Positions 8,376 to 35,155 of a DNA stretch of 37,746 bases are shown piece after piece (within the stretch, counting starts at the first letter, position 1; each line of letters starts with the position of its first letter). Both the position numbers and the translations under genes were made by a program. The notes under the pieces are model-generated. The model was not told the DNA's origin, searched no databases, and saw only the letters and a list, made by a program, of their open reading frames with translations. This DNA is from Fischerella sp. CENA71 (GTDB lineage: Bacteria; Cyanobacteriota; Cyanobacteriia; Cyanobacteriales; Nostocaceae). The stretch covers positions 1 to 37,746 of the forward strand of contig JANBVI010000062.1 in assembly GCA_024239075.1 (NCBI GenBank), given 5' to 3'.

Positions 8376-8400
8376 TCCTTTTAAAAAAGAGCGAAGCCTA

Positions 8401-8424: not shown

Positions 8425-8460
8425 CACCACCTAGATAAATCAAGGGGCTTGTCGAATAAT

Positions 8461-14076: not shown

Positions 14077-15411
14077 TTACCCAGTATGTAATTCTACAGA
14101 AGGTTGGTAGTTGTTATCTGCAACGCGCTCGTAAGTAACTACATCACCAACAACTCTTAACCTCTGACCCAGAAATAAACAAAAACCAACAGGTGCGTAT
14201 AAAACTAGGTGTGTATTATTGGCATCATACTTTTGACGATAGTAGCGAATCAGTTCCTTAGCATGAATTGCCAATGCAATGGTATCTGCATCAGAACTAA
14301 TAGCCCCTTCTCCAGTACCAGATTCTGGTTCTGCATAAACGAAAGAACTGAATGGTACAGGTGAATTTTGACGCAGCCGTTCTAAATCTCTTAATGCATC
14401 ACCTGTAATTCCCAAAGCAAATAAAAGGTGTTCTCCTGTTTTGCCATCTTCTTTTACAATCTTAAACTTTGCATCCGAAAGGCTAGCATCTGAGCGCCAC
14501 AAGTAGTCTTGTCCTAAAGTTCGTTGTTTTATTTGGAGGGTATACCCTCTGGTATCTGGGAAGACTGCACCGATCGCAACTGCTGTTGTTAAAGGGAACT
14601 TCCCACGTACATCGACTGTTAATGAAGCACGCCCCTGAGACAATTGTTCTCGTGCTTTTACTAAACTTGGTAATAAAACATTGTCCCAGGTTTCTTGGTC
14701 AGCAATGCGTCGGGGCTTTGCATCAATATCAAAATACTGAGTCCAGTCTAGTTCTAAAGTGGAAGAATTTTCGTATTCCTGTTTTAACCACCCATGTACA
14801 CATAAAGTTACAGTTGTATTATTTAATATGTTATCCTGAGATTTCTTTTTAATTAAAACTGGAATATTAGCTTGGTTAACTCCTATCATGCGGATGCCAC
14901 TACAACCGAAATCATAGGCAAAATCATAATCTCTACCCATACCTAGCGCATCATAAAAGCCAACAGCAAATTCGATAGCAGCACGATCACCAATGGGTTG
15001 ATTCATCCCAATCACATATTTAATATGTTTTCTAATAGCTTCTGCTTGTACTTCTGAGTAACAGGCATTGAGCAACACACATTCTACTTGGTCTGCAAAT
15101 AGTTGGAACAATCCAGCCAGCGCCGTAGCATTGACAAATTTGACCTGACCAGTTTCATCTTCGAGTGCTAGTCCTTGATCTCCGACACCATGCCCAGAAA
15201 AGTGAACTATTTGGGGACTAACCTCTAATATTGCCCGTTGCATTTCTCTGGGAGTAACTGCCCAACGTTGTACTAATTCTAGTTGATCACGATGGCGGGC
15301 ACGGCGCAGAGCATCATCGATTTCTCGAACTTCTTCATCTAGGCGCAGACGGTTAGTTTGCCTGGGGTTAGCGGTAAGAATAAGGATGCGTTTTAAGAGA
15401 TGGGTGGTCAT
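14077..15411 (-). CDS. SAVED-CHAT protein: cyclic-oligonucleotide sensor fused to caspase-like protease
   Basis: A 444-aa two-domain protein. Residues 1-180 form a CHAT (caspase HetF-associated with TPRs) protease domain with the catalytic pair His74 (IVHFSGHG) and Cys117 (VLLNACYSE). Residues ~200-440 form a SAVED domain, the cyclic-nucleotide sensor first known from CBASS, recognisable by LELDWTQYFD, the central LTVDVRGKFPLTTAVAIGAV, ALGITGDALRDL and the closing HLVLYAPVGFCLFLGQRLR. SAVED-CHAT proteins linked to type III CRISPR are known to respond to cyclic oligoadenylate and start proteolysis (studied in Haliangium). The gene is divergent from cas10 with 348 bp between them, which supports the same role here; ligand and substrate are inferred. 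Confidence 0.88.
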   Translation of the reverse strand: MTTHLLKRILILTANPRQTNRLRLDEEVREIDDALRRARHRDQLELVQRWAVTPREMQRAILEVSPQIVHFSGHGVGDQGLALEDETGQVKFVNATALAGLFQLFADQVECVLLNACYSEVQAEAIRKHIKYVIGMNQPIGDRAAIEFAVGFYDALGMGRDYDFAYDFGCSGIRMIGVNQANIPVLIKKKSQDNILNNTTVTLCVHGWLKQEYENSSTLELDWTQYFDIDAKPRRIADQETWDNVLLPSLVKAREQLSQGRASLTVDVRGKFPLTTAVAIGAVFPDTRGYTLQIKQRTLGQDYLWRSDASLSDAKFKIVKEDGKTGEHLLFALGITGDALRDLERLRQNSPVPFSSFVYAEPESGTGEGAISSDADTIALAIHAKELIRYYRQKYDANNTHLVLYAPVGFCLFLGQRLRVVGDVVTYERVADNNYQPSVELHTG

Positions 15412-15759
15412 AGGTTGATATTGATGCAGACAAATAACAGGAGGAAAAGATATTCAAGTTTAAATAAAAACATGACTATAGGCAGATAGAAACGATATTA
15501 ATATTGCCTTAACAAATGCCTGGCGATGTGTCTCAGACAAAACACTACTTTTAAATACATTGATACTACTTAATAAAATTTAGATTTTTTACAAAAGAAA
15601 TATATTAATTAACCGTATTTTTGCGTAATTAGTTGTTCACTTAATGAAGTATGTATTTAGTGTTTAAAAAACTCATCTGGGTAAAACCAGAAAATCAACC
15701 ACAGCCTAAAATCTCACTAAAATAGCTGTTTTCAAACTTATAGCCATACATCCTAGTCC
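15412..15759. promoter_or_regulatory. Divergent promoter region between SAVED-CHAT and cas10
   Basis: This 348-bp AT-rich gap separates two divergent genes and must hold both promoters. No clear Shine-Dalgarno sequence precedes either start. A small inverted repeat CTGGGTAAAACCAG lies at about 15677-15690. The TTATATA boxes seen at the cas1 promoters are absent here, so regulation is probably different. I see no gene. Confidence 0.5.
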
Positions 15760-18700
15760 ATGAATTTCTACCAACGTAAGTTATATGCACTACTACAAGC
15801 ACCAAGCTTACCAAACTGGGGAAACCTCACCACCCAATTAGAATGTTTACTCCCTGACTTACCACAGCTTCGAGAATGGTGGGGAGCAAGTAATGAGCAA
15901 GATAGTATCAAAAGAGGTAAACAAGCACAAGATATTGGTTCGTCGTGCGATCGCGTTAATCTATCTTATATAGAACACAAAGACAATACACAACCTGTAA
16001 CCGTTCATCATCCGATCAGTGGTCAAAAACAGGAGATTAGAGCATTACAACTAAACGATAACGCACCAGATATTAGCCAGATAAAAAGCGAAACAGATAC
16101 TCAAAAAGTTTTTTGGTGGTTTTGGCGATTTTACTCAGAACTGTTAGCAGACAAACAACACGATGCATTACTATTCCCCGCACATCAAGTCATCCCTGAC
16201 TGTCCGCTACACAGCCACCAAAGTACAGTTTCGGCTTTAACTGGTGCAATGTTCCCGGAAACTTGGCAAACAGGAGAACCGCATCAAACACCTTATCTAT
16301 TAGTATTTACCTTCTCCCCAGTACAGGAATTTATCAAATCTTCCCGTAAATTCCTAGATTTTTGGGCAGGTTCATATCTGCTTCATTATCTCAGCAGTCG
16401 GTTGTGCTGGCATATCGCCCAACATCTTGGTCCTGATGCAGTAATTATACCTTCCCTGTGGAATCAGGAAATTATTGATGCATTAATTATGCAAAAATAT
16501 CCTGAATTTGCATCTAATTTTGCACATCTCCAAGAAGATAGTAAAAATCCTGTAGAGCGATTTACAGATAAAATATCTACAAGTTTAAGCACAGCCGGTT
16601 TCCCGAATGCAATTACTGTATTAGTTTCAGGAAAAGCAGAAGCTCAACAATGGGGAAAGTATCTCAAGGAGACTTTAACCGAAGAATGGGTGAAAATCGG
16701 TACAGAAGTCAAAAGCCATATTAGAACCCAAGTTATAGAATTTTTAGATAAACAAACTCCAAAAGAATTAGAGAACATCTTAAAAGAAGTATTCCCCGAA
16801 TTTGAAAATACACCTGCTGCTCTCGAACCTTACCGCAGAGAACTGCAACTTCTCAAGCGCCAATGCTGTTGGGAATGGAATAAACTTTGGGAAGCTCAAC
16901 TGAATTACACCTGGGAACCATACTGGACAGCCATACCACTAGGAAACCCAGAACAAGCATTAGCCATTGATAAAATTAATGGTATTTTTGAGCAACCTTG
17001 GATTGATTGCCAAACCGAAATTGCTCAACCACTTGTAGATTTACCCGATAAATTTGAAAAACAGTTTTATACATATTTAAATGTAGGGACATGGTGGGGT
17101 AGTATCCAGCAACGCTTGCGACATTGCTTAAATGATGTTAAATATACCCGTAATTGGCAAATTGCTACTGCTCCTGGTGAACGTTCTACAATATCAGGTC
17201 AATTTAGCGCCCTTCACCCACGGCTTAATTATCAAGTAACAAAAACTCTTGGAGGGCAAACACGAGACTTACGTCAAGGTGGTGGTGTAGCCGCAGGTTC
17301 GCTGCGCTTATTTTGGTTTATCATGTCTGAGGCTTATCCTGGTTTATTTAACGGTTCTGAGAAACTTAATGCACTGGAACTCACTAAACGAATGGCTTGG
17401 GTTTATGGAGGTGTAGCAAAATCTTTGGGAGTTCCTATCGAATTAATCGAAGACCCACTACCTGATGAAGTTGCTACCGAATTGGAGCCAGAAGCTAGCA
17501 ACCAAAACGTCGAACAAACAACCAAAATCATTGATTACGAACAGTTAATTAGGTTTCCTAACCTCAGTTCCATCGCCGCTGCTGCTTTTGCACGGGAACA
17601 TCCATACTTGATGCAAGCTTATAGAAGAAATTTATATCGACTTTTCAAACAACATAAAAATAAGTTTTCACGTTTACAGCAACGCACTTTTTACGCCAAA
17701 ACTAGTCGTCCGTTCCACATCCCAAATACAGATAAAGCAATTAAGCAGGCATTCCCTAACCTCAAAGGTAGTTACAACGGTGTGATGTTTTCTAGTAAAT
17801 GGCTCATCGATGACATGGGTTTGCAAGAAAAGGAACGTATCACTACCAGCACTAGCCCAGATTCATCTCAAAGTCAAAACAATCGCAAACAAGTTGAGAT
17901 TTTAAGAGAAATTGTCCAACAAGCCCATCAGGATACTGGCTTTGGTGACAGCAGCCCCACCGATTGGTGGGTAATTATCCTTGCTGATGGTGATGATATG
18001 GGTGACTATGTTTCTGGAAAAAAACTCAAAACATACAGGTCTTATGTTGAAGAAGATGCTATCAATAAAAGCATCGCAGATTTTGACGACAATCTATTTC
18101 ATCAATTCCTCGATGAAACTGATAAACGCATGGGGCCAGCTACCCACGTAGGCTTAAACCGCGCATTATTAGACTTCTCCAATCGCTTAGTTCCCTACTT
18201 AACAGAAGAGCGTTTCTGCGGCCGCGTCATTTACAGTGGTGGCGATGATGTTATGGTGGTGCTACCCTTAGAAGATTTACCAGAATATCTATTATCACTG
18301 CGTGCTGCTTGGAGTGGTGCAAAAGATCCCAAACAAGAGTTTGAAAATCAACGTAATGGAGTTGTTTCTCAGTCAAATAACCAAACAGATGGAGCAGATA
18401 GAACTACAGGCTACTGGTATCCCACAGAACGAGTAAATGGATTACCTCAACGCCCCCACTTCACAATGGGAAAGAACGCAACTATGAGTGCTGGTGTGGT
18501 AATTGCTCACAAAAGCATTCCCCTACCCACTGTACTGGAAAGTCTTTGGAAAGCAGAAAGCGACAGAGCTAAACAAATGTCTGGTAAAGATGGTATTTGC
18601 TTGAGAGTAATTTATGGTGGTGGTAATCAGTTAGAAGCATTAATGAAAGGCGAATTACTAGAGACATGGTGGGATTGGGTCAAGGATTATGAATTATACG

Positions 18701-19110
18701 AAGACAAACTTAGCCCACTACTATATCGGTTAGCCGAAGAACTCCCTAATCGTGCTGACATTACAGATCATTTCCATCTGTTTTCTAAAGCCGCGAAAGT
18801 CATTATGGAAAGCCGCGACAAGAGTAAACAACTTGATGAGGTATTTAGCAAAATTGAGCAATGGTTAGACAAATGGGAAGAATGGGCGAAACTAGCTCTC
18901 AAAGAATGGGCAAAACAACACCTCAAAGGTTGGGAGCAACAAACTCCAGAACAATGGGCTAAGGAAGCCCAAAAAAGTAACTCAGAACCCATTGGTACTA
19001 AACCAGAAGATTTAGCCAGACTTTTGAGATTTACCGCTTTTTGGGTCGATAAGCGGGTGGAACGGTTCAAATGGAATGAAAAAGATAAAAGCCAAAACGC
19101 CAAAGAATAA
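15760..19110 (+). CDS. cas10: Type III-B Cas10 (Cmr2), signalling polymerase subunit
   Basis: The 1116-aa large subunit of the Cmr complex, which makes cyclic oligoadenylate when the complex binds target RNA. FTFSPVQEFIKSSRKFLDFW is the typical Cmr2 block near residues 186-210. The first palm has DGDDMG (743-748); the second carries the catalytic YSGGDDV with GGDD at 827-830. The N-terminus reads KLYALLQAPSLPNW where Cmr2 proteins usually have the HD nuclease signature L-H-D-P-P, so HD appears replaced by QA. The C-terminus is a Trp/Lys-rich helical domain. It is first gene of the effector operon, followed 50 bp later by cmr3. Signalling is expected to be active; DNase activity probably lost. 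Confidence 0.93.
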   Translation: MNFYQRKLYALLQAPSLPNWGNLTTQLECLLPDLPQLREWWGASNEQDSIKRGKQAQDIGSSCDRVNLSYIEHKDNTQPVTVHHPISGQKQEIRALQLNDNAPDISQIKSETDTQKVFWWFWRFYSELLADKQHDALLFPAHQVIPDCPLHSHQSTVSALTGAMFPETWQTGEPHQTPYLLVFTFSPVQEFIKSSRKFLDFWAGSYLLHYLSSRLCWHIAQHLGPDAVIIPSLWNQEIIDALIMQKYPEFASNFAHLQEDSKNPVERFTDKISTSLSTAGFPNAITVLVSGKAEAQQWGKYLKETLTEEWVKIGTEVKSHIRTQVIEFLDKQTPKELENILKEVFPEFENTPAALEPYRRELQLLKRQCCWEWNKLWEAQLNYTWEPYWTAIPLGNPEQALAIDKINGIFEQPWIDCQTEIAQPLVDLPDKFEKQFYTYLNVGTWWGSIQQRLRHCLNDVKYTRNWQIATAPGERSTISGQFSALHPRLNYQVTKTLGGQTRDLRQGGGVAAGSLRLFWFIMSEAYPGLFNGSEKLNALELTKRMAWVYGGVAKSLGVPIELIEDPLPDEVATELEPEASNQNVEQTTKIIDYEQLIRFPNLSSIAAAAFAREHPYLMQAYRRNLYRLFKQHKNKFSRLQQRTFYAKTSRPFHIPNTDKAIKQAFPNLKGSYNGVMFSSKWLIDDMGLQEKERITTSTSPDSSQSQNNRKQVEILREIVQQAHQDTGFGDSSPTDWWVIILADGDDMGDYVSGKKLKTYRSYVEEDAINKSIADFDDNLFHQFLDETDKRMGPATHVGLNRALLDFSNRLVPYLTEERFCGRVIYSGGDDVMVVLPLEDLPEYLLSLRAAWSGAKDPKQEFENQRNGVVSQSNNQTDGADRTTGYWYPTERVNGLPQRPHFTMGKNATMSAGVVIAHKSIPLPTVLESLWKAESDRAKQMSGKDGICLRVIYGGGNQLEALMKGELLETWWDWVKDYELYEDKLSPLLYRLAEELPNRADITDHFHLFSKAAKVIMESRDKSKQLDEVFSKIEQWLDKWEEWAKLALKEWAKQHLKGWEQQTPEQWAKEAQKSNSEPIGTKPEDLARLLRFTAFWVDKRVERFKWNEKDKSQNAKE

Positions 19111-19157: not shown

Positions 19158-20288
<1,131 letters not shown>

Positions 20289-20291
20289 TCA

Positions 20292-21200
20292 ATGAGTGAT
20301 TTTCGTACTGGATATCTTTACACACTTGCGCCAATTCATTGTGGTGGCGAAGGCGATTTAGGAAATATTTTAGATATTGTCCGCGAAGTACACACCGATT
20401 TTCCTTACATCCCAGGTTCTTCTTTGCGAGGTAGCCTACGCTGGGATGTAAACTCTATTGATCCAGCCACCACAGATAAATTATTTGGTAAAGAATTAAG
20501 TGCAGATGGACAAATGGGGGTTCATCAAGTTTGGTTTGGTGATGCTAGACTACTTTGGGTACCGATGCGGACAATGGCAATGAACGGCAATCGTAATGTG
20601 TTTACCTGGGTAAGCTGTCATTCCTTGATCCGCGACCATGCATTACTATCTAGACTACCAATCAGTGATTTTCCCAATCATCCTGTAGGTACTCAAACGG
20701 GTACTTATTACGTTGCTGACGCTCAATTACAAGTTTCTGCACTGACGAACGAACAAAAAGAAGCGATCGCACTAGCCGGAGATTGGCAGCGATCGCTTGC
20801 TGATGCAGTTAAGTCAACCTGGAATAATAACCGCATCGTCCTTGCTGATAGCGATTTTCAAACTTTAATGGAGCATTCACTGTGGACGCAGATTCGCAAC
20901 AAAATTAACAAAGTTGGTGGTGAAGATGATGATGAAGATGATTCTGAAGGTGGTGCAGAAATATTTTGGACTGATGTTTGCATTCCTAGAGATACCATTC
21001 TCTACTATCCTTGGGGTTACAAATTAAACAAAAATAATCCAGTAGCCCAACGCGAACATGATTGTTTGATGGATGTTGTTACAGGAGTATTTCAAATTGG
21101 TGGACAAGCCAATGTCGGGCGAGGTTGGGTACAAGGCTGGGTTACAAATCATACTTTGCCTGTATTAGACACAAATCAACCTATGCATGTGGAGGCGTAG
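20292..21200 (+). CDS. cmr4: Type III-B backbone subunit Cmr4
   Basis: This 302-aa RAMP protein polymerises along the crRNA and normally cuts target RNA at 6-nt intervals. The signature FPYIPGSSLRGSLRW follows the catalytic loop region LGNILDIVREVHTD. The Asp usually expected three to four residues before 'P-I-x-R-E' is not in its usual place; an Asp lies two positions later (LDIVRE). An acidic insert (EDDDEDDSEGGAE, about 213-226) sits before WTDVCIPRDTILYYP. The C-terminus has the glycine-rich loop FQIGGQANVGRGWVQG. It lies 3 bp after cmr3 and 2 bp before cmr5. Confidence 0.92.
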   Translation: MSDFRTGYLYTLAPIHCGGEGDLGNILDIVREVHTDFPYIPGSSLRGSLRWDVNSIDPATTDKLFGKELSADGQMGVHQVWFGDARLLWVPMRTMAMNGNRNVFTWVSCHSLIRDHALLSRLPISDFPNHPVGTQTGTYYVADAQLQVSALTNEQKEAIALAGDWQRSLADAVKSTWNNNRIVLADSDFQTLMEHSLWTQIRNKINKVGGEDDDEDDSEGGAEIFWTDVCIPRDTILYYPWGYKLNKNNPVAQREHDCLMDVVTGVFQIGGQANVGRGWVQGWVTNHTLPVLDTNQPMHVEA

Positions 21201-21202
21201 TC

Positions 21203-21592
21203 ATGATTAAACCAGAACAAATGAGCCTGAGTGCTCATCAACATATTCAAAAATATCTTGAAAGCAGTTCCAACACTGTAATTAGTAAAGAAGAGTTAAA
21301 CGCGATTTTAAGGCTATCTCAGCATTTGCGAGTTTTTGGTTTACTCTCAGCCGCAGCCTATGTCAACCAAAAAAATGTCCAAGAAGGAATAGTGCGATCG
21401 CGTATTCTTCCCGTGTGGAAATCGCTGCTTGGTCAACTGATCAATTCAGAAACACCACCTTCACCAGAAGAATTACGCGAGATGATTGTCCAAATGGCAA
21501 AGGATGAACCAGCAAAATATATGGTGACTTGGCGCAAGGCTATGATTTTATCCAATTATTGGAACTTTTGGGCAAGAGCCTATTGTGCATAA
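21203..21592 (+). CDS. cmr5: Type III-B small subunit Cmr5
   Basis: The 129-aa all-helical small subunit forms the inner filament of the Cmr complex. The ATG at 21203 is chosen because it follows GGAGG at 21191-21195 inside the end of cmr4; longer readings in the frame overlap cmr4. The sequence (AHQHIQKYLESS, LSQHLRVFGLLSAAAYVNQK, ARAYCA) fits Cmr5, including the C-terminal Trp/Tyr-rich helix WRKAMILSNYWNFWARAY. Confidence 0.88.
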   Translation: MIKPEQMSLSAHQHIQKYLESSSNTVISKEELNAILRLSQHLRVFGLLSAAAYVNQKNVQEGIVRSRILPVWKSLLGQLINSETPPSPEELREMIVQMAKDEPAKYMVTWRKAMILSNYWNFWARAYCA

Positions 21593-21613
21593 TTCTTCTT
21601 TTGACTTTTGTGC

Positions 21614-21639
21614 AGACGCGAGGAACATCGCGTCTCTAC
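21614..21639. repeat. Hairpin between cmr5 and cmr6-cmr1
   Basis: AGACGCGA and TCGCGTCT form an 8-bp perfect stem with a 6-nt loop (GGAACA), followed by CTAC. A longer relative (GTAGAGACGCGAAATTTC...) occurs at 23437-23464. This looks like a dispersed cyanobacterial palindrome and may affect read-through inside the operon. Confidence 0.7.
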
Positions 21640-21661
21640 TTTTACCTTTTTACTTACTTAT

Positions 21662-23386
21662 ATGTACACTGGACTGCAATTGGTTGATTTACTGGAAAAG
21701 CAACATCAACGTCGAGGAACATCAAATTTATTCAAGAAAGATACTTTTACCCTGCAATGGAGAAGTAAAGTTGGTTCATTTCCCCATCCTGATGTAGAAA
21801 CAATGGTTTCTGCGGGAGAACCTTGTGGTGCTTGGTACGTTACTAATGGGCGACCAGAAGATAAACGCCAATTAGACGAAAATTTGGATCAAATGTCAGA
21901 AGTTCCCCTCAATGGCTATATTCCTGGTTCTTCAATTCGGGGAATCGTACGTGCGTGGGCAATGGAACGTCCCAGTATTCGTAACCAAATGTTGGATTTG
22001 CTGGGATGTCAACAAGGAAATGTGATTCAAGGGGGCAAAATTGAATTTTTAGATGCTTGGCCCCAGACAGCAACCAAACTTGTTCTAGATATAGTTAATC
22101 CACAGGAAAGCTTTCAAGTCTACCATGAGGGGCAAGGTAAACCACTTTCTGTTTATACTTTGGGAAATAGTGAAGATACTATTCCGGTAATAGTCGCAAT
22201 TCGAGGGATTCCAGGGTTAGCTAGCCCCCAAGAAGTACAAACAGTTTGGGAATGGGTGCAACAAGCACTTAGTGTTTATGGAGTTGGCAGTCGTACTTCT
22301 GCGGGATATGGTCAGATTAAACCACCTAGCGGTTTTCGAGCATCACCAGAATTGCGTCAAGCTGAAAATGGTTCCACCACTAAAACCTTTGAATTTAAAC
22401 TCTATAGCCAAGGTTGTTCTGGTGCTGACCGCCAACAACAAGAGTTTCGTCCTTCCCATTGGCGTGGTTGGTTACGTTCTTGGATATTACGGTTCCTGTT
22501 AGGTGTCATGTCCAAAGATAACGCACAAAAAACCTTATGGGAACTAATGGGAACCATAGAACCACATACTCGCAAAGGTTGCGTAAAAATCCGCATGATT
22601 CCAGACCCAGAAATTTGGGGCGATCGCTCAATTAACGAACCCTACTTTTATGTTTGGGGGGGGAAATTACAAGTTACTGCACCAAGCGAAATTCTCAACA
22701 AAATTATTCTGCCAATTATTCGATTTGCAGTTAGCACAGGCGGCGTTGGTAGAGGTTGGCGACGACCATTGCATATTTTTCATATGGAAAATAATAACAG
22801 AGCTGCAACGCGGGGAAGTCATTTAATCATGACGCACCAAGTTACTAATCCAAAAACTAAAAATCGAGAAACACAACCTTACAGATTCCGACACAACCCA
22901 GAAAATTGGACTTCTGCCTATGATAATTGGTTGACGGCTGTGCGATCACGGTGGTCTGACAGAATCAACATTGATGCAAATCAATCATTAGAGGCTGAAG
23001 TCTTTTCACCCCGTACTTGCGCTGTTTATGCCGTTCCCGGCCCCGAAGCTAATCCAATTGATGAGAATGATTTTGAGTGGCTGGAAACCGATGCGGTAGA
23101 AACTCGTGGAGAAGGTATGCACCTGATTTACCAACAAACTCCCCCACGCAATTACAAACGTAATCCAGATATTGGAGGCAATGCTGCTAATAAAAATCCT
23201 CATTGTTCATGGGCAAGTATTAAGCGAATTAATACACCTAGTCAAGAAATAGAAGTGGATTGTCAAGAAATTGTTTGCTTATTTATGGGGGGAAAATCAC
23301 CTCAGTCAAATCATATCCGCGCACAATTTCTTGAAGATTTGAACGGGATAGAAGGAAAAGTACATTTATTCGGTGTTTCTCCTTAA
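21662..23386 (+). CDS. Cmr6-Cmr1 fusion protein
   Basis: A 574-aa double RAMP protein. The ATG at 21662 (MYTGLQLVDLLEKQHQRRG) is preferred over upstream starts because the 21608-21661 stretch is hairpin and T-rich spacer. Residues 1-~235 are Cmr6: LNGYIPGSSIRGIVRAWAME and VYGVGSRTSAGYGQIKPPSG. Residues ~240-574 are Cmr1-like: TKTFEFKLYSQGCSGADRQQ, RPSHWRGWLRSWILRFLLG (the Cmr1 'R.s..RG.lR.W.R' block), LWELMGT and a C-terminal RAMP loop, FAVSTGGVGRGWRRPL. There is no separate cmr1 in the operon, so this one chain should provide both subunits at the 3' end of the crRNA. Confidence 0.85.
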   Translation: MYTGLQLVDLLEKQHQRRGTSNLFKKDTFTLQWRSKVGSFPHPDVETMVSAGEPCGAWYVTNGRPEDKRQLDENLDQMSEVPLNGYIPGSSIRGIVRAWAMERPSIRNQMLDLLGCQQGNVIQGGKIEFLDAWPQTATKLVLDIVNPQESFQVYHEGQGKPLSVYTLGNSEDTIPVIVAIRGIPGLASPQEVQTVWEWVQQALSVYGVGSRTSAGYGQIKPPSGFRASPELRQAENGSTTKTFEFKLYSQGCSGADRQQQEFRPSHWRGWLRSWILRFLLGVMSKDNAQKTLWELMGTIEPHTRKGCVKIRMIPDPEIWGDRSINEPYFYVWGGKLQVTAPSEILNKIILPIIRFAVSTGGVGRGWRRPLHIFHMENNNRAATRGSHLIMTHQVTNPKTKNRETQPYRFRHNPENWTSAYDNWLTAVRSRWSDRINIDANQSLEAEVFSPRTCAVYAVPGPEANPIDENDFEWLETDAVETRGEGMHLIYQQTPPRNYKRNPDIGGNAANKNPHCSWASIKRINTPSQEIEVDCQEIVCLFMGGKSPQSNHIRAQFLEDLNGIEGKVHLFGVSP

Positions 23387-23464: not shown

Positions 23465-23479
23465 ATTCTTTTTCACCAG

Positions 23480-24168
23480 AGGTCTATTAATTCGCCTCCA
23501 CATTGTTAGTGGAGACTCCAGAGTCAGAACAAGATCCAGAGTTTGAAAAGAAGTTTCCATTAATTCGCCTCCACATTGTTAGTGGAGACTCAGTCCCCCT
23601 CTGGCTCAGGTACTCCAGCGTTAGGTTTCCATTAATTCGCCTCCACATTGTTAGTGGAGACCCATCCTTGTTAGAAACCTCAAAAGTGTACTTGGTGTTT
23701 CCATTAATTCGCCTCCACATTGTTAGTGGAGACAATGGGCTGTATTCCGTATTTGATGTCATAGTCGTTTCCATTAATTCGCCTCCACATTGTTAGTGGA
23801 GACCAACGTGTGTCATCTCCTTTTCGTATCTTGGTTTTGTTTCCATTAATTCGCCTCCACATTGTTAGTGGAGACCTTCTTTATACAGATTATCGAATAA
23901 GGAGTTAATGCGTTTCCATTAATTCGCCTCCACATTGTTAGTGGAGACTTGAGACTTACACCACAAGGAACGAAGACAAGCATTTAGTTTCCATTAATTC
24001 GCCTCCACATTGTTAGTGGAGACTCACCTTTAGCTTTGATATATTCGTAGGTGATTTGGGTGTTTCCATTAATTCGCCTCCACATTGTTAGTGGAGACTT
24101 GGTTGATGTAATTAAGTAGGCGATCGCTTTAGTTTCCATTAATTCGCCTCCACATTGTTAGTGGAGAC
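23480..24168 (-). CRISPR. CRISPR array 1: 10 repeats of 37 nt, 9 spacers
   Basis: Repeat starts: 23480, 23553, 23625, 23697, 23767, 23839, 23912, 23987, 24062, 24132. On the plus strand the repeat begins GTTTCCATTAATTCGCC and ends ACATTGTTAGTGGAGAC; TCTCCAC/GTGGAGA gives a hairpin. In crRNA sense (minus strand) it ends ATGGAAAC, a type III style 8-nt handle. The repeat at 23480 is degenerate at its plus-strand 5' end, which marks the old end, so the leader lies to the right. Spacers are 33-38 nt. The spacer at 24099-24131 contains GCGATCGC, suggesting a cyanobacterial or cyanophage source. Confidence 0.97.
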
Positions 24169-24576
24169 TGCTGGGGTTTGAAAGCCTTGAAATAGAAGAC
24201 TTACAGCATTCATTTTCGCGAACCAGACCCAAAAGTACCGTTTCAGCCATCGCTTGTCAAATTCCTTGAGGTATAAAATTGCCCATAAATCTTCCGGGGC
24301 AAGGATTTCAGCATTTTCGCAAATCTCTTTTGGAGATAAAATCGCTCAAAGCTAGTACAGATAAGCTTTTAAGCCATATATAACAAGCGTTCGATAAAAA
24401 CAGCTAGGGGTTCGCGAAAAAATTTGGTGTCTAGTGACAAACTAGCACTCTGATACATATTTTATTCTGTTTACTGAATGATAGGTATGAAGTTTTTTGG
24501 ACATGTGATCACACTTTTGAATTGTCAGTAGTTAGCTTCGGACAAGTTTAAAACTATTCCACGAATTACTTTAATT
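24169..24576 (-). promoter_or_regulatory. Leader region of array 1
   Basis: This 408-bp gene-free stretch lies at the young end of array 1 and should drive its minus-strand transcription. A 12-nt sequence occurs twice in opposite orientation: TTTTCGCGAACC at 24213-24224 and GGTTCGCGAAAA at 24409-24420. It shares nothing obvious with the leaders of arrays 2 and 3. Its far side also borders the old end of array 2; 24533-24552 (CTTCGGACAAGTTTAAAAC) may be a decayed repeat of that array. Confidence 0.65.
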
Positions 24577-25790
24577 GTTTTCATTAATTCAACTTCCGAA
24601 GAAGTTTAAAGTTAAAAAATGCAATCCACTCTCTAAGCCAAAAAGATCAAGTTTCCATTAATTCAACTTCCGAAGAAGTTTAAAGCAAAAAATGAACAAA
24701 GAAATAGAGGAAAAAGGATTTTGTTTCCATTAATTCAACTTCCGAAGAAGTTTAAAGTCGTTAAATTTGACTTCCCACAGAAGTTATTGGTTTTAGATTG
24801 TTTCCATTAATTCAACTTCCGAAGAAGTTTAAAGATTTCCGTCAACTTAAGTGCCCCCAGTTGGGATGCAGTAGTTTCCATTAATTCAACTTCCGAAGAA
24901 GTTTAAAGGTCTATTCCCTTTCATCATTGTTAGATGGTTTGTAGTGTTTCCATTAATTCAACTTCCGAAGAAGTTTAAAGATTTAGAAAAAGATCACCCT
25001 AGAGTGATCTTGCAAAAGTTTCCATTAATTCAACTTCCGAAGAAGTTTAAAGCCAAAACCAGTGCCAAGACCAACGCCAAGGGCAAGGTCAGGAGGTTTC
25101 CATTAATTCAACTTCCGAAGAAGTTTAAAGTTGAAATTAAATCAGGCATGAGCCTGATACCAGATAGTTTCCATTAATTCAACTTCCGAAGAAGTTTAAA
25201 GTTTTGCTCCTACATTTTTCGCAGAAGAAAGAAGCACGTTTCCATTAATTCAACTTCCGAAGAAGTTTAAAGTTGATTTTAAAAGAAAAGTTCGATCTTT
25301 CTGATCGAGGTTTCCATTAATTCAACTTCCGAAGAAGTTTAAAGAACCGCTATCCTCCGCTTGGACGGTTATGCAAAAGTAGAGTTTCCATTAATTCAAC
25401 TTCCGAAGAAGTTTAAAGAGTTGTTCTGTCGCTATTTAAGCCAGAATTGTATTTTAGTTTCCATTAATTCAACTTCCGAAGAAGTTTAAAGATGAAGACT
25501 TTGACGATAGAGAAAGACAAACAGCTTTTCGTTTCCATTAATTCAACTTCCGAAGAAGTTTAAAGCGTTCAAACTGGAACGACATGTAATGTATATGAAC
25601 GAGAGTGTTTCCATTAATTCAACTTCCGAAGAAGTTTAAAGTCGGGCAATCAATCCGACAGGCACACTTAACCAAACTGTTAAGGTTTCCATTAATTCAA
25701 CTTCCGAAGAAGTTTAAAGTACAGTTGGATGATCGTGAACATTCCCTTCTTTATGGTTTCCATTAATTCAACTTCCGAAGAAGTTTAAAG
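24577..25790 (-). CRISPR. CRISPR array 2: 17 repeats of 35 nt, 16 spacers
   Basis: Repeat starts: 24577, 24651, 24723, 24800, 24874, 24946, 25018, 25096, 25167, 25238, 25310, 25384, 25457, 25531, 25607, 25685, 25756. On the plus strand the repeat begins GTTTCCATTAATTCAAC and ends GAAGAAGTTTAAAG, with ACTTC/GAAGT forming a small stem. The first copy has GTTTTC instead of GTTTCC, marking the old end. crRNA sense is the minus strand, ending ATGGAAAC. Spacers are 36-43 nt, and several contain perfect hairpins. The leader is to the right. Confidence 0.97.
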
Positions 25791-26128
25791 GGTAGACTTA
25801 TAGAAAGCTTACACTGCAAGGATTATAACCTCCTTGATCTGAGGGGGTCAATTTTTCTCTCTTAGAATTGAGAATAGCTCTCAACAGTTCCATCTTTTAG
25901 ACCTCTCAAAGCCTTACCCAACAATCTATCTGAGGGGGTCTACGAAGAAATCAGGCTTTCAACCATTGCATAACCCCTTCAGATGCTTATCAATGGCTCA
26001 ATAATTTATAAGTTTATCCAATCATTGAGAAAACTAAAAAGCCAAGGGTACTCCAAGAAAAAAACTTAAGCGCGATCGCCAACTGAAAATAACAGTCTAA
26101 AATAATTATCCCATCTATATTTCACTTT
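25791..26128 (-). promoter_or_regulatory. Leader and promoter of array 2
   Basis: This is an inverted homologue of the array 3 leader. On the minus strand a TATAAT box (plus-strand ATTATA, 25822-25827) lies exactly 31 nt before the first repeat. ATCTGAGGGGG occurs on the plus strand at 25837-25847 and 25928-25938, and a variant in the other orientation (CCCCTTCAGAT) at 25974-25984. The leader similarity reaches about 26030. The remaining ~100 bp up to the TPR-CHAT stop holds a GCGATCGC site and T-rich heptamers. Confidence 0.8.
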
Positions 26129-29100
26129 TTACTTTTCACTTGTCTGACAAATCCACGCACCCCAATAAAAGGGATGCTCAAGCGGTGTATCTTCTTGTTG
26201 ACAATCAATTTTTGTTTCTGGCAATAATTCCTTTACTCCCAAAAGTTCCTTCAAAACTTCTATACCCAAGGCAGATTCCCTTAATTCCTTTACCGTAATT
26301 TTACGTACAAAATTCTGAGCATTCTGTAATGCTTCAGTATACCCTATTCCACTCTGTAAATGATCAAAAAACCGATCCATCAATAGCGCCGTTGCTCTAT
26401 CAGGCACTTTCCACAGACTCATTACGAGCGTTTTTGCACCAGCCACCGTAAAAGCTCGGCGCAATCCAAACACTCCTTCGCCAATTTTAATATCTCCTCT
26501 GGCAGTATCGCAGGCAGACAATACAGTCAGTTCGTTCGCCCACAAGTCCAAGCTGGCGATCTCCTGAGCAAAAACAAAGCCTTTACCTGCTTTTTGAGGT
26601 AGAGTACCATTCTTTAACCAAGTATTAGCACCCGCAAGAGCAAGTCCAGAACGCATCATGGGGTTAGTCGATTTTAGATTTTGGATGATGGATTTTGGAT
26701 TAATAGAATGTTGGGTGGGTGGTTGCTGCGGCGAGTCGGGTAAGAACAAACCGTGAGTGGCGATGAGCATAACTTTGGGACACTTACTACTGATTAGGCG
26801 AGTTGAGAGTGCTTCTGCTCCCACATATAACCGCGCATCTGGTAGCTTTTTAGCAACACTTTCACCAAGAAACCTTGTACCAGTTGCACGAGATAAAGCC
26901 TCACCACCAAGAGTATCGATAAATTCTTCTCCTTCTTGTCCCCCTAACCCGACTTCCCCAATCCTCTGCTCACTAACCAAATCAAAATCTGGATCAGCCA
27001 CAATTATAGGTGCATCCGCAGCACGTACTGTCTGCACTCTTGAACGGAGAATATCCCGCCCAACCCCTAAATATGAAATAGTATATTCATCCATGAGCAG
27101 ATGTATACCCGTCTCATCAGTTGGTAATATCTGAAATGGCAACAAGTTCAGGTTCCCATCCGGTGCAAGTATCAGATGTTTGTAACCTTGTACTAGTTCA
27201 CGGATTGGAGCAAAAAGTGTTTGACTTAGTTGAATAGCTAGTGTTGGATCATATTGTTTAATTTTTAATTTAGGCGTATTAGAAGCTTTTCCCCAAGCTA
27301 AGGTTTGCTTCGTTGGGTCACAAGCAAGCGATCGCAATCCTGAAATTAGCTCATCAATAACTTCGGCTTCTCCTAAATCGATCATCTGCACTGCATCAGG
27401 CTGCTGGGCTGGTAAAATAAATGCCAAATAACGAGCAGGATGCCATTGTGTTTGTTCTCTAGCTGGGACTGCATGAAAATCGTAGACATCGAAGCGGACA
27501 AATTCTACTAAAATCGAGTTAGTTGGTAATGCCTCAGCCACTGCAAAGCGGTCAGGAAGTTTCTTTGTTAATTGAATTTCTGGTACTTGGGATGCTAGTT
27601 GTTTTTGTAAGTGATTATATCTAGCCTCCAGTTCTGCTAACTCCTTCTGATAGGTAGTGAAATCACTGATTTGAGGAGTAGAAAAAGTCAACTTTACCAA
27701 CTGTGCATTCAAATCACTCAGTTGACGAAACTGTTCTTGCAGATGAGGATAGCGATCGCTCGCTAAAGCTTCATTTTGAGCAGACAATGACGCAGCTGTT
27801 AAAGCTTTGCGTTTGAGGACAAAATCTAACGCTTGTTGCAAAGCATATTTTGAATGAGGAAGATGTTTGTAAATCAGAGAGAGAAATAAATCGAAATTAC
27901 CTCTAATTTTCTCAATCCAAGCTATCCGGTCATTTTCAGAACTAAAAGCAAATACATTACTCATTAACTTATCATTGATTTCGCTAGCTTGAAGGCGACA
28001 TGACAAAGCATCATCAGGACGTTGAGTAGCAGCTAATAAAGTTGCTAAATTATTTAAACTAAATGCCACATCTGGATGATGATTTCCCAACAGAGACTTC
28101 CTCATCAATAAGGCTGCTGTATAATATTGTTCGGCTTCAAGGTAGCGTCCACCAGACAAGTATATCTCTGCTAAGTTATTTAAAGTGTTAGCAATATCTG
28201 GATGTTCTTGACCTAATAAAGACCTTCTGATATCTAGTACTTCCAAATGCATTTGTTCCGCTTGGTCGTAGCGCCCCAGACTGCCATAAATTGTAGCCAA
28301 ATTATTCATCGTACTAGCTACTTGCGGATGTTTATTGCCAAACTGATTTTTGACAATTAACAATACTTTTAAAAATAACTGCTCTGCTTGCGAATATTTG
28401 AATTGAGCATCGTATAATACTCCTAAGTTATTGAGATACGCTGCCACATCAGGATGCATTTCTCCTAGTAAGCGTTTACTCAACAAATACGCTTCACGGT
28501 AAATCTCTTCGGCTTGGGAATACCGCCCTTGTAAACGATAAATTTCTGCGATTCTATTGAAACTGTCTGCAATATCAGGATGTTCTTGTCCAAATAAATT
28601 TTTTCTGATAGAATACGCTTCTAAATATTTTTGTTCAGCATCCGAAAAACGCCCTTGCTCTTTATAAAGTCCACCCAAATGATTTAAATTATCAGCAACA
28701 CTAGGATGATTTTTACCGTATATATTTTTGTAAAGCAATAATGCTGACAAATACTTTTCTTCGGCTGCTTGGTAGCGTCCTTGATAGGCGTAGAGAACTG
28801 CGAGATTATGTAAACTGAGGGCAATATCGGGATGTTTAGGAGTTAAGGAGCTTTTTCTGATAGAATACGCTTCTACATACACTTGCTCCGCTAACACATA
28901 ACGTCCTTGTAAAAGATAGATATCTCCCAAATTACTCAAACTCTGTGCAACTTCTAAATTCTCGTCTCCAAATAATTTCTTTCGCATTGCCAAGGCTGTT
29001 AAATGCATGTTTTCTGCATCCGCATAACGCCCTTGATCATTATAGGTATTAGCAAGATTATTTAAGGTAATTGCTACATAAGGGTGTTGCTCACCAAGAC

Positions 29101-29848
29101 ATTTTTTAGATAGTTCCAATGCTTGGGAATAATTTTCTTCAGCTTGAGAGTAAAGTCCTTGGGAGTGATACAACGCTGCTAAATTATTTAAGCTGACAGC
29201 AATATACCAATGCTCATCGCCCAGCAAATCTTTTCGCATTGCTAATGCTGACAAGTGCATTTTCTCAGCATCAGCATAACGTGCTTGATTTTCGTAAAGG
29301 GCTGCGAGATTATCCAAGCTTTGAGCGATATCAGCATGGGATTCTCCCAACAATCGCTTTCGCATATTTAGTGCTTCTAGATGCATTTTTTCCGCATCTT
29401 CAAAGCGTCCTTGTTCTCGATAAACTTCGCCAATGTTATTTAAATAATTGGCAATTTGCTCGTGTTCATCACCTAAATTAAGTTTAAAAATATCTAAAGC
29501 TGCAAACAAGTAAGTTTCTGCTTGAGAATATAGTCCTTGAGCAACATAAAATGCAGCAAGATTATTCAAAGCTTGGGCAATATCTGGGTGTAAATCTCCT
29601 AATAATTCTTTTCGCAAATTTAAGGCTTCGATATATAAGGGTTTCGCTTGCGAAAAATATCCTAACATTCGATATAATTCTGCAAGATTATTTAAACTGT
29701 CTGCAAAAATTTGATGCTTACATAGATTTTTGCGTCCTATTTCTACAGCTTTTCGTGCAACGATTATTGCTTGTTCAAATTTGCCTTGTCCAGCAAGTTG
29801 CACTACTTCTCGATTAAGTTGATCTATTTTTTCTAGAATTTCTTTCAT
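26129..29848 (-). CDS. TPR-CHAT protein: caspase-like protease with TPR array
   Basis: A 1239-aa protein. Residues ~45-640 are about 14 kinesin-light-chain-type TPR units of 42 residues (SLNNLAALYHSQGLYSQAEE... type), expected to bind protein partners. Residues ~640-800 are a helical linker with coiled-coil character. Residues ~800-1239 form a CHAT protease domain with catalytic His1032 (LIATHGLFLPD) and Cys1113 (TVLSACDTARG), followed by VFGLRRAFTVAGAKTLVMSL and the closing HPFYWGAWICQ. Similar TPR-CHAT proteins are widespread in cyanobacteria, and one class partners the type III-E effector. Its place between two CRISPR arrays and the RT-cas1 module suggests a role in the type III response, but this is inference. 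It is followed downstream by the leader of array 2. Confidence 0.9.
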   Translation of the reverse strand: MKEILEKIDQLNREVVQLAGQGKFEQAIIVARKAVEIGRKNLCKHQIFADSLNNLAELYRMLGYFSQAKPLYIEALNLRKELLGDLHPDIAQALNNLAAFYVAQGLYSQAETYLFAALDIFKLNLGDEHEQIANYLNNIGEVYREQGRFEDAEKMHLEALNMRKRLLGESHADIAQSLDNLAALYENQARYADAEKMHLSALAMRKDLLGDEHWYIAVSLNNLAALYHSQGLYSQAEENYSQALELSKKCLGEQHPYVAITLNNLANTYNDQGRYADAENMHLTALAMRKKLFGDENLEVAQSLSNLGDIYLLQGRYVLAEQVYVEAYSIRKSSLTPKHPDIALSLHNLAVLYAYQGRYQAAEEKYLSALLLYKNIYGKNHPSVADNLNHLGGLYKEQGRFSDAEQKYLEAYSIRKNLFGQEHPDIADSFNRIAEIYRLQGRYSQAEEIYREAYLLSKRLLGEMHPDVAAYLNNLGVLYDAQFKYSQAEQLFLKVLLIVKNQFGNKHPQVASTMNNLATIYGSLGRYDQAEQMHLEVLDIRRSLLGQEHPDIANTLNNLAEIYLSGGRYLEAEQYYTAALLMRKSLLGNHHPDVAFSLNNLATLLAATQRPDDALSCRLQASEINDKLMSNVFAFSSENDRIAWIEKIRGNFDLFLSLIYKHLPHSKYALQQALDFVLKRKALTAASLSAQNEALASDRYPHLQEQFRQLSDLNAQLVKLTFSTPQISDFTTYQKELAELEARYNHLQKQLASQVPEIQLTKKLPDRFAVAEALPTNSILVEFVRFDVYDFHAVPAREQTQWHPARYLAFILPAQQPDAVQMIDLGEAEVIDELISGLRSLACDPTKQTLAWGKASNTPKLKIKQYDPTLAIQLSQTLFAPIRELVQGYKHLILAPDGNLNLLPFQILPTDETGIHLLMDEYTISYLGVGRDILRSRVQTVRAADAPIIVADPDFDLVSEQRIGEVGLGGQEGEEFIDTLGGEALSRATGTRFLGESVAKKLPDARLYVGAEALSTRLISSKCPKVMLIATHGLFLPDSPQQPPTQHSINPKSIIQNLKSTNPMMRSGLALAGANTWLKNGTLPQKAGKGFVFAQEIASLDLWANELTVLSACDTARGDIKIGEGVFGLRRAFTVAGAKTLVMSLWKVPDRATALLMDRFFDHLQSGIGYTEALQNAQNFVRKITVKELRESALGIEVLKELLGVKELLPETKIDCQQEDTPLEHPFYWGAWICQTSEK

Positions 29849-30019: not shown

Positions 30020-30802
30020 TTAATTTGCAGTAATCATATAATCTGTATATAAAACCTGACATTCTTCACTTTCATTTACAAATTCTAGTAATTGCCCCAA
30101 ATGACTTTCTTCTAATTGCAAAGGTTCATCACTTCCTTGGGGTAGCCAATCAAGGGTAGGTGCATCTTTAGTAATTACTGCTAAAATTTGTTCCTTACCA
30201 GGATTGCCTTCAATTGGGAAAGATGTCATCGGTGAACCCTCTTGAGGCACAATAGTTTTACCAGTATCTAGTTGTGGTTGGGAAGCGAAACAGGAAGGAC
30301 AAAAACACCACACTTGTCCAGATGTATCTTTTTGTATAAGTAATAAATATCCGGAACTTTCAAGATTGATTTCAAAACGAATGTGACTACCTAAAGATAC
30401 AGATTTTGCATAACGGTTTGGAGTCTGCCAACGCCAACCGAGTGTTTCTTCTTGTACCAAAACTAATCCCATTTGTTCAGTAGGGGAACCTAGTGTTTTA
30501 AGTTGCTGCCAAAGTTCTTCAACAAATGTAAGAAGTGTTTTTTGAGTTTCCTTTTCTTCTGGAATATCTGAATTAGATGATGCAGCTATATCTTGCCAGT
30601 CTAAATCAAGAATAGTACAGATTTCGGTAAAAATATTATAACTAATGGGTATACCGTTGAAGAATTTACTAATAGTTGCCCAAGACGCAACACCAACATC
30701 ATCAGCTAGGGCTTGTTGAGTCAGATTCTTACGCATCAAGGCATTTTTAGCCCTTTCGATACCTTTAAGTGATGCAACTAGCGTCCGCTTTGGCATAGTC
30801 AA
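30020..30802 (-). CDS. HTH protein with C-terminal DUF4384-like domain
   Basis: A 260-aa protein. Residues ~15-75 form a Cro/CI-type helix-turn-helix (NLTQQALADDVGVASWATIS then KFFNGIPISYNIF). Residues ~125-255 resemble DUF4384, a beta domain often attached to CHAT, caspase or kinase signalling proteins (VSLGSHIRFEINLESSGYLL, WCFCPSCFASQP, ITKDAPTLDWLP). The gene is divergent from RT-cas1; the 210 bp between them carries four TTATATA boxes, also found before the second cas1. It is therefore a candidate regulator of the adaptation genes, and its position before the TPR-CHAT gene suggests a partner or substrate. Start could be ATG 30802 or 30796. Confidence 0.75.
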   Translation of the reverse strand: MTMPKRTLVASLKGIERAKNALMRKNLTQQALADDVGVASWATISKFFNGIPISYNIFTEICTILDLDWQDIAASSNSDIPEEKETQKTLLTFVEELWQQLKTLGSPTEQMGLVLVQEETLGWRWQTPNRYAKSVSLGSHIRFEINLESSGYLLLIQKDTSGQVWCFCPSCFASQPQLDTGKTIVPQEGSPMTSFPIEGNPGKEQILAVITKDAPTLDWLPQGSDEPLQLEESHLGQLLEFVNESEECQVLYTDYMITAN

Positions 30803-33328: not shown

Positions 33329-33865
33329 CTTTAAACTTCTTCGGAAGTTGAATTAATGGAAACTGTTCTAATAGTATTGGTAACAGGAGCTGTAGACGAC
33401 TTTAAACTTCTTCGGAAGTTGAATTAATGGAAACCTAATTGCACATACTCCAACTAATAAAAACAGGTACTTTAAACTTCTTCGGAAGTTGAATTAATGG
33501 AAACAGGAATCCAGCCGTAACGTTGGCATACACCATAAATGGCTTTAAACTTCTTCGGAAGTTGAATTAATGGAAACGCTCATCAAGCTGGCGCATAGCT
33601 AACCAACCAGAACTCTTTAAACTTCTTCGGAAGTTGAATTAATGGAAACTCATGTGTCTTGTTCCCACTCCCGTGATCACAAGACTTTAAACTTCTTCGG
33701 AAGTTGAATTAATGGAAACTTGCCTCACCTCTTGCATTATACCCCTTAAATGTTTTGTCCTTTAAACTTCTTCGGAAGTTGAATTAATGGAAACTGATTG
33801 CATTATTTTGATCGGCAACCGTAGTTTGAGCTTTAAACTTCTTGGAAAGTTGAATTAATATAAAT
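33329..33865 (+). CRISPR. CRISPR array 3: 8 repeats of 35 nt, 7 spacers
   Basis: Repeat starts: 33329, 33400, 33470, 33543, 33615, 33685, 33760, 33831. The repeat is the reverse complement of that in array 2: it begins CTTTAAACTTCTTCGGAAG and ends GAATTAATGGAAAC. The last copy (33831-33865) is degenerate (CTTGGAAAG, ATATAAAT), marking the old end on the right. Spacers are 35-40 nt. It is transcribed on the plus strand from the leader at 33019-33328, between RT-cas1 and the second cas1. Confidence 0.97.
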
Positions 33866-33915
33866 TTTGAAAAATACTTTTCAAAGTTGTAATAACAAAG
33901 AATATTGAGTTAATT

Positions 33916-34114: not shown

Positions 34115-35155
34115 ATGTCCACAATCTACATCACCGAGCAAGATGCAATGCTCAAAATCCAACACCATTATTTAAAGGTGTTTCATCAACAAAAACAATG
34201 CATTTGTATTCGGATTAATAATGTCAGTCAAATCATCATCTTTGGTAACATACCTCTACCAAGGGAAGTCATTAAAACCGTGCTTGCTCATCAAATTCCT
34301 GTCTTATATTTAACTCAAGATAGCGAATATATAGGTCGGTTAGAAAATACATCCCAACAACCAGCTAAATATCTAATCCACCAACGCCGACGCGCACGAG
34401 ATGTAGAATTTAATCGCGCTACAGCAGAAAGTATTATTTGGGCAAAACTGCACAATCAAAATACCTTTTTGCAAAGTTGGACTCGTCATTACACTAGTCC
34501 TGCAACCCAACGTGCATCAAATTACTTGATGCTGTTGATAGATAACTTAGCATTAGCAACATCCCTTGATGAACTACGCCAATACAGTGAAGAAGCTGAT
34601 AATGTTTACTATTGCGCCATTGGTTCCCTACTCAACTTCTACAACGGATGTCCACAGACAACAGCAAAGCGAATTCGCAGATTTTTAAACCTGGGAAATC
34701 AGCTGCTACATCAATATATTTACACCCTTGTGAATACCGTCGGACTACACTCTGACTACGCAATCTTACACCATGACACAGATCACGAACTTCCCTTGGT
34801 GTGGGATTTCATGGCAGAATTTCACGCGCCTATCGTTGATGACTTGGTGTTAAATTTTGCGCGTCATTTTTCTAATTCTCACTCTAATGGTAACGGTAAA
34901 AGTCAGCCGCGAACCCTGCTCCAACGTTTCCTCCAGTATTGGGAAGCAAAACTACGAACCTTTGTAATGCATCCCTACGCTGGGGAAGTAAGTTACCGCC
35001 AGTGTATCGACTTGCAGGTACGCGAGTATCTCGCCTGTTTGCTAGGCGATGTCGAATATTATCGCCCCCTAGCGTTGAAATTCAATCCAGCACGTCCAGA
35101 ATTTGCTGACGTTATTGCACCCCAGCAAGTACCGTTAACGTTGGTGAAGCGATGA
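34115..35155 (+). CDS. cas1: Stand-alone Cas1 paralogue with degenerate active site
   Basis: A 346-aa Cas1-family protein, similar to the Cas1 half of the RT-Cas1 fusion throughout (TAESIIWAKLHNQNTFLQSW, LQVREYLACLLGDVEYYRPL). A gap-free alignment shows changes at metal-binding positions. The catalytic Glu (GYEG) is Ser158 (QYSE), the Glu three residues after the conserved Asp is Ala234 (DFMAEFH instead of DLVEQFR), while His219 and Asp231 remain. It may serve as a structural partner rather than an integrase. It overlaps cas2 by 4 bp (ATGA), showing translational coupling. ATG 34115 follows the heptamer-repeat spacer. Confidence 0.88.
   Translation: MSTIYITEQDAMLKIQHHYLKVFHQQKQCICIRINNVSQIIIFGNIPLPREVIKTVLAHQIPVLYLTQDSEYIGRLENTSQQPAKYLIHQRRRARDVEFNRATAESIIWAKLHNQNTFLQSWTRHYTSPATQRASNYLMLLIDNLALATSLDELRQYSEEADNVYYCAIGSLLNFYNGCPQTTAKRIRRFLNLGNQLLHQYIYTLVNTVGLHSDYAILHHDTDHELPLVWDFMAEFHAPIVDDLVLNFARHFSNSHSNGNGKSQPRTLLQRFLQYWEAKLRTFVMHPYAGEVSYRQCIDLQVREYLACLLGDVEYYRPLALKFNPARPEFADVIAPQQVPLTLVKR

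Follow-up and report, generated by a model that had tools for sequence, protein, structure and literature searches.

A CHAT-SAVED protein beside a cyanobacterial type III-B CRISPR locus, a probable protease gated by cyclic oligoadenylate

We analysed a 37,746-nt stretch of DNA from the cyanobacterium Fischerella sp. CENA71, hereafter called the window, which corresponds to one contig (JANBVI010000062.1; C62 in our numbering) of the 7.47-Mb, 95-contig assembly GCA_024239075.1. Next to a type III-B CRISPR locus, its reverse strand carries a gene (14077..15411; ORF, open reading frame, delineated together with Pfam and NCBIfam matches) for a 444-residue protein that we call CHAT-SAVED. A CHAT protease head (residues 5-190, 14842..15399) is followed by a linker and a SAVED sensor (residues 191-444, 14080..14841, SAVED proper at about 205-441). 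The CHAT signature PF12770 covers residues 11-160 (E=5.6e-11, 42.9 bits for a curated cut-off of 24) and the SAVED signature PF18145 residues 253-441 (E=2e-25, 90 bits for a cut-off of 26.2), with the NCBIfam SAVED profile extending over residues 205-441 (E=3.9e-35). The dyad residues are H74 (codon 15190-15192) in the motif HFSGHG and C117 (codon 15061-15063) in NACYS. The original prediction, made from the sequence alone, had announced a CHAT protease with intact His74 and Cys117 fused to SAVED, and this is borne out, with both residues present and both domains above their Pfam cut-offs; its name, SAVED-CHAT, inverts the actual order, CHAT being N-terminal and SAVED C-terminal. Pfam lists only these two domains on the protein, with no Lon protease domain, and the window protein is the sole SAVED match of the assembly. 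Like its anatomy and catalytic residues, the purifying selection acting on the gene is a direct observation.

The neighbouring cas10 gene (Cmr2, 1116 residues, 15760..19110, forward strand) is of type III-B (PADLOC Cas10b, E=0; NCBIfam Cmr2, E=6.2e-46) and encodes the cyclase motif GGDD at residues 827-830 (18238-18249). As predicted, it is divergent from the CHAT-SAVED gene, at a distance of 348 bp. It is followed on the same strand by cmr3 (19161..20288; Pfam Cas_Cmr3, E=1.4e-42), cmr4 (20292..21200; Pfam and PADLOC), cmr5 (21062..21592; PADLOC Cmr5, E=2.2e-64, with the model on ORF residues 49-175, the true start probably lying near 21200) and a gene for a 592-residue Cmr6-like RAMP (repeat-associated mysterious protein) (21608..23386; PADLOC Cmr6, E=8.7e-48). 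Three CRISPR arrays were found, of 10 copies (23472..24176, direct repeat family D3), 17 copies (24565..25803, family D2) and 8 copies (33329..33876, family D5, which is the D2 repeat in inverse orientation). The window contains 50 ORFs of at least 80 residues, 27 of which were scanned with Pfam; the other 23, of 80-170 residues, overlap scanned genes or a CRISPR array. No CARF and no CD-NTase family was detected among the 27. The lack of a CARF nuclease, also part of the original prediction, therefore holds for the window but not for the genome, which has a Card1-like protein beside another cas10. The latter belongs to a separate type III locus (C42, L113) harbouring the Card1-like gene (7901-9364) and a TIGR03985 gene; the endonuclease domain of the Card1-like protein scores above its cut-off and its CARF domain below.

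Relatives were collected by a contig scan of genomes, which gave 180 pattern stretches and 110 relatives; 80 loci were kept. Both domains were matched in three of the 80 (L014, L015 and L092), the CHAT-SAVED copy of L092 being broken, and the rest match the CHAT side. Five intact CHAT-SAVED genes were found, in the window, a Scytonema metagenome-assembled genome (L014), Phormidesmis priestleyi (L015), Nostoc sp. TCL26-01 (G191) and genome G640, and H74 and C117 are kept in all five proteins. With the SAVED half as query, 4 of the 386 genomes of a phylum-level sample were matched (G000, the genome of the window, G191 and G060 strongly, G231 at 25% identity), and 9 of 388 in an order-level sample (G000, G191 and G640 strongly, six others at 23-27%). 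Among 72,556 plasmid records, pTCL26-01_B of Nostoc sp. TCL26-01 is the only one with 80% or more of the protein covered in one place; it is typed as mobilizable, and the protein on it is annotated 'SAVED domain-containing protein'. On that plasmid (L122), an ISKra4-family transposase gene interrupts the cas10 of the CHAT-SAVED III-B module. No relatives were found in viral contigs (29 pattern stretches, none confirmed) or in phages, the latter searched with the SAVED half.

All intact copies lie in type III loci, four of type III-B and one, in P. priestleyi, of type III-A (Csm1, E=1.5e-156). The neighbourhood survey suggested with the original prediction thus found type III genes in all readable homologue loci, and homologues do not occur mostly away from cas10. 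The head-to-head pairing with cas10, in contrast, is real in the window but local. The other four intact copies are on the strand of the effector operon: three (L014, G191 and G640) are downstream of cmr6 with gaps of 36-149 bp, and that of L015 overlaps cas6 by 11 bp. The window layout is therefore an exception, probably a rearrangement near mobile elements; the left part of the window contains transposase pieces, an integrase and two PRiA4_ORF3 copies.

We compared the protein with PDB 8tl0, which we take to be the Haliangium ochraceum type III SAVED-CHAT with PCaspase of Steens et al. 2024, a protein that reportedly activates PCaspase. The two share a CHAT fold with a His/Cys dyad and a SAVED domain in the same chain, as well as a type III-B locus, the window Cas10 having an intact cyclase motif. 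They differ in domain order, since CHAT lies at 287-455 / 304-506 in 8tl0 and at 5-190 here (the PADLOC SAVED_CHAT match covers model positions 287-442), and in that no caspase is linked to CHAT-SAVED, either on the 37.7-kb contig or in the flanks fetched for its homologues. The CHAT head is 28% identical to that of 8tl0, and 86 head-bearing ORFs of the kept loci, three of them CHAT-SAVED, show 50-70% identity. Of nine head proteins without SAVED that were given to Pfam, two have no other domain called, and the remainder carry TIR, AAA_35 (three), TIR-AAA_35, nSTAND1-WD40 or pentapeptide repeats. In a quick tree of 87 heads (6 CHAT-SAVED and 81 others, two short ones having been removed by a length filter), the six CHAT-SAVED heads form one side of a branch (SH-aLRT, Shimodaira-Hasegawa-like approximate likelihood-ratio test, 98). 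The head fusion has one origin within the sampled heads, which are the most similar ones only, and a wider set could alter this result.

The SAVED half has other affinities. Its sequence matches that of Cap4 from CBASS (cyclic-oligonucleotide-based antiphage signalling systems) and is nearer to Cap4 than to 8tl0; a Foldseek search with the CHAT-SAVED model matched Cap4 (E=1.3e-8) and, more weakly, a 268-residue 8tl0 chain (E=3.2e-5). A SAVED tree of 15 rows, with the root set by hand, joins the six CHAT-SAVED proteins with a TIR-SAVED protein of genome G060 (90/94, not starred); as their sister branch stands a Bradyrhizobium protein that bears a Cap4 nuclease domain (90/88, not starred). The tree neither fixes the position of TIR-SAVED inside the group nor tells which of the two heads, TIR or CHAT, came first. 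In its SAVED domain, this TIR-SAVED is 51% identical to the window protein; its gene (L100:14500-15720) precedes a III-A cas10 (Csm1, E=1.4e-159) by 294 bp. Identities to the window protein also vary between halves, at 63% for the head and 71% for SAVED in G640 and 78% and 63%, respectively, in Nostoc sp. TCL26-01. These opposite patterns hint at exchanges of heads and sensors inside the family.

Given the nearer cyanobacterial relatives of the head, the Cap4 match of the SAVED domain and the reversed order, the cyanobacterial fusion seems, as judged from the sequences, to have occurred once and separately from that of 8tl0. CHAT-SAVED probably arose when a cyanobacterial CHAT head was set before a SAVED of the Cap4 type, in an event distinct from the origin of the studied SAVED-CHAT. 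Plain membership in the known type III SAVED-CHAT family, as originally assumed, is thus discarded; the 8tl0-type family was ruled out because order and kinship differ.

The Cmr complex of type III systems is known to bind transcripts that match. Binding of target RNA would lead Cas10, whose GGDD motif is intact, to make cyclic oligoadenylate. By analogy, the C-terminal SAVED domain would bind this messenger, most likely cyclic tri-adenylate (cA3), in view of its Cap4 kinship and TIR-SAVED sister. Binding might cause the proteins to stack through their SAVED domains, as other SAVED proteins do, and stacking would in turn activate the N-terminal His74/Cys117 dyad. The active CHAT domain would then cut one or a few proteins, halting the infected cell. 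We consider, with a probability of about 0.75, that CHAT-SAVED serves a cyanobacterial type III CRISPR system as an ancillary effector protease gated by cyclic oligoadenylate, probably cA3.

Several points weigh against this proposal. We infer the ligand, the oligomer, the cleavage and the substrate, and we found no linked substrate or caspase. Only five intact copies were found, and the linkage counts are small and come from non-independent copies; that of the window stands beside transposase remains, one piece ending 93 bp from the gene. The SAVED part of the structural model is weak, with pLDDT (predicted local distance difference test) values under 50 at residues 192-207, 209-214, 229-232, 271-279 and 281-314, such that residues 193-304 were barely probed by the fold search and a comparison of the pocket with those of SAVED proteins that bind cA3 or cyclic tetra-adenylate (cA4) was prevented. 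Given this and the weaker Foldseek match to an 8tl0 chain, the SAVED domain may after all be akin to that of 8tl0.

Other modes of action must be weighed against direct cleavage by a cyclic oligoadenylate-gated protease. CHAT-SAVED might activate an unlinked prokaryotic caspase, which would destroy host proteins, a minor but serious possibility. Its CHAT fold is nearest to 8tl0, and PF00656 caspase matches number 12 in its own genome, on other contigs; a further six genomes that have this SAVED lineage contain 58. However, little can be concluded from such matches where caspases are so common, and none of the 12 is on the contig of the window. The caspase ORFs of this genome also have no match at E=1e-4 in nine homologue stretches (L014, L015, L092, L098-L101, L123 and L124).

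We regard it as rather improbable that the substrate is encoded nearby, as a Cam2-like membrane protein or the pair formed by TPR-CHAT and HTH-DUF4384 (HTH, helix-turn-helix) described below. The Cam2-like protein is found in six of the seven genomes with the same SAVED lineage, the exception being the genome from which the broken copy of L092 comes. In Nostoc sp. TCL26-01, as in G640, its gene adjoins that of CHAT-SAVED; in L015 it is about 6.4 kb away, and in the L014 genome it is away from the CHAT-SAVED locus. In the order-level sample, Cam2 is present in 11 of 388 genomes, including 3/3 CHAT-SAVED genomes, and a Cmr2 match at E=0.001 in 240 (158 over the cut-off), including all 11 Cam2 genomes; given these 240, the chance of finding Cam2 with CHAT-SAVED in three cases of three is 7e-5, kinship ignored. 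However, a Cam2-like gene is also about 1.9 kb from the SAVED gene of G060, where the TIR head is no protease, and others are present in stretches of Anabaena cylindrica and Nostoc UHCC 0870 without a listed SAVED protein. In Fischerella sp. CENA71 itself, the Cam2-like gene is beside a different cas10, in another type III locus (C38, L104). As for the pair, TPR-CHAT and HTH-DUF4384 have no match at E=1e-8 in L014, L015, L092 and L098-L101. As the Cam2-like gene also accompanies TIR-SAVED, we think it more likely that the Cam2-like protein and this SAVED lineage have a messenger in common than that one is the substrate of the other. The L015 Cam2-like protein is matched by PADLOC Mem_02 (E=8.6e-76; described as '2TM with a globular domain') and by C3a55 (E=5.1e-64; 'ABC permease'). 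The Cam2-like proteins are likely the Cam2 of PMC11229360; Cam2 combines N-terminal transmembrane helices with a REC-like domain. No remnant of a Cam2-like gene matched the window at better than E=0.05; a 27-residue match in L014 (8887-8967, E=0.013) is not claimed as a remnant.

The Cap4 kind of SAVED would also fit a response to some other signal, such as the product of a CBASS cyclase, with CHAT-SAVED beside cas10 by chance; this is very unlikely, as the scanned window ORFs include no CD-NTase and the readable homologue loci are of type III. Least plausible of all is a head acting as a non-catalytic binding module, since both H74 and C117, the predicted catalytic residues, are kept in 5/5 CHAT-SAVED proteins.

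Among known systems, Cap4 shares the C-terminal SAVED of the window protein; CHAT replaces its endonuclease head, and the locus is of type III, not CBASS. TIR-SAVED effectors have a TIR domain instead of a protease, that of G060 being set on the SAVED lineage of CHAT-SAVED, and TIR-SAVED within type III loci has been published (PMC11229360). CalpL, as portrayed in PMC11417357, also has an N-terminal protease and a C-terminal SAVED domain in a type III context, but its protease is Lon rather than CHAT, it uses cA4, and its substrate is the anti-sigma factor CalpT. Craspase (TPR-CHAT, type III-E) is another CHAT protease acting as a CRISPR effector. It is not known to have a SAVED domain. It is activated by protein contact and not by cyclic oligoadenylate (PMC9704534). 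A SAVED-gated CHAT protease in type III systems is, as a kind, already published. PMC11229360 counts three loci for SAVED-CHAT, described as rare, reports Cam2 beside it in two loci and predicts cA3 as the Cam2 ligand; the three loci may include the CHAT-SAVED family. We did not find the reversed order, the independent origin or the alternation of CHAT and TIR on one sensor lineage in the open-licence literature, a weak negative given that the key paper lies outside it.

More tentatively, CHAT-SAVED might represent a second, independently evolved cyclic oligoadenylate-gated caspase-like family of cyanobacterial type III systems, with interchangeable CHAT and TIR heads on one sensor and a signal shared with a Cam2-like membrane effector, killing or arresting cells without PCaspase. 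In the window it could work beside a second CHAT system, TPR-CHAT with HTH-DUF4384, guarding the RT-Cas1 acquisition module, hence as two separate proteolytic alarms in one locus. We hold this combined picture to be possible, although doubtful as a whole. The CHAT-SAVED findings themselves suggest at least two origins, with opposite domain orders, for the coupling of a cyclic-oligoadenylate sensor with a caspase-like protease, and a single lineage of sensors that bears either a protease or a TIR head. This makes testable a caspase-like proteolysis without PCaspase, the sharing of cA3 between the SAVED lineage and Cam2-like proteins, and the substrate of a CHAT head common in cyanobacteria.

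The second CHAT system is on the adaptation side of the locus. TPR-CHAT (1239 residues, 26129..29848, reverse strand; Pfam TPR and CHAT, E=5.8e-53) and HTH-DUF4384 (260 residues, 30020..30802, reverse strand; Pfam DUF4384, E=1.3e-16; HTH_3 below its cut-off at E=0.0056) precede, on the forward strand, an RT-Cas1 fusion (31012..33018; Pfam Cas1 and RVT_1), a second Cas1 (34115..35155; Pfam, E=1.3e-48) and Cas2 (35152..35433; Pfam CRISPR_Cas2, E=1.1e-23). The original prediction had held that a cyanobacterial version with an RT-Cas1 module and a separate TPR-CHAT might be undescribed. RT-Cas1 with a second Cas1 has already been described for the cyanobacterial clade RT-CRISPR-3 (PMC5541045), and by gene content the window module fits that description, with RT-Cas1 and a more distant second cas1. 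TPR-CHAT goes with RT-Cas1 rather than with CHAT-SAVED; it was ruled out as a conserved partner of CHAT-SAVED, having been matched only in the homologue stretch of G640.

HTH-DUF4384 and TPR (CHAT) genes occur, mostly divergent, beside RT-Cas1 in the window and in cyanobacterial loci L123, L148, L149, L150 and L173. The pair of G640 is oriented divergently to RT-Cas1 (251 residues of the TPR protein were read), and that of G078 is about 6 kb downstream of RT-Cas1, after cas2, with CHAT confirmed. HTH-DUF4384 was matched at E=1e-20 or better in 45 places of a 206-genome order sample. In nine of these the match includes the HTH part at the N-terminus, and each of the nine has an RT-Cas1 match no more than 5 kb away; they comprise three HTH-DUF4384 proteins and six frames of 1,102-1,224 residues; the three long frames that were read have STAND/NACHT matches below curated cut-offs. 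A similar HTH N-terminus is thus borne by proteins of about 1,200 residues beside RT-Cas1 (L171:907-4578, L172:2402-6061 and L174:1302-4916), as if HTH-CHAT pairs and HTH-STAND proteins replaced each other. Lower-scoring matches of the HTH part extend to further proteins of plasmids, including NACHT proteins of Nostoc and Synechocystis, which counts against the link with RT-Cas1. The plasmid matches amount to 33 records, three of which cover at least 80%. In the neighbourhoods of these three, from Anabaena cylindrica, Nostoc UHCC 0870 and Nostoc edaphicum, the HTH gene and a long cas1 point away from each other, and a TPR gene comes after the HTH gene, with CHAT annotated in UHCC 0870 only and with group II introns ahead of the TPR gene in N. 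edaphicum. A word search of the main texts of PMC5513706 and PMC5541045 returned none of the terms caspase, CHAT, TPR and DUF4384, and a legend on adaptation-linked genes in PMC10910872 names CHAT, HTH and NACHT.

Two small genes follow cas2 in the window (35511-35837 and 35946-36251). Counterparts exist in Nostoc sp. TCL26-01, at 76% and 82% to the window, and also in G640, where the figures are 74% to the window and 70% to the Nostoc copy. On the other side of the CHAT-SAVED gene, a NACHT-type WD40 gene (8461-12645), whose product has NNH5 and inactive-REase domains, was ruled out as a conserved partner, as it has no match in the nine homologue stretches. It is flanked by the PRiA4_ORF3 genes (4668 and 12839), whose sequences agree at 91% over a stretch of 300 nt.

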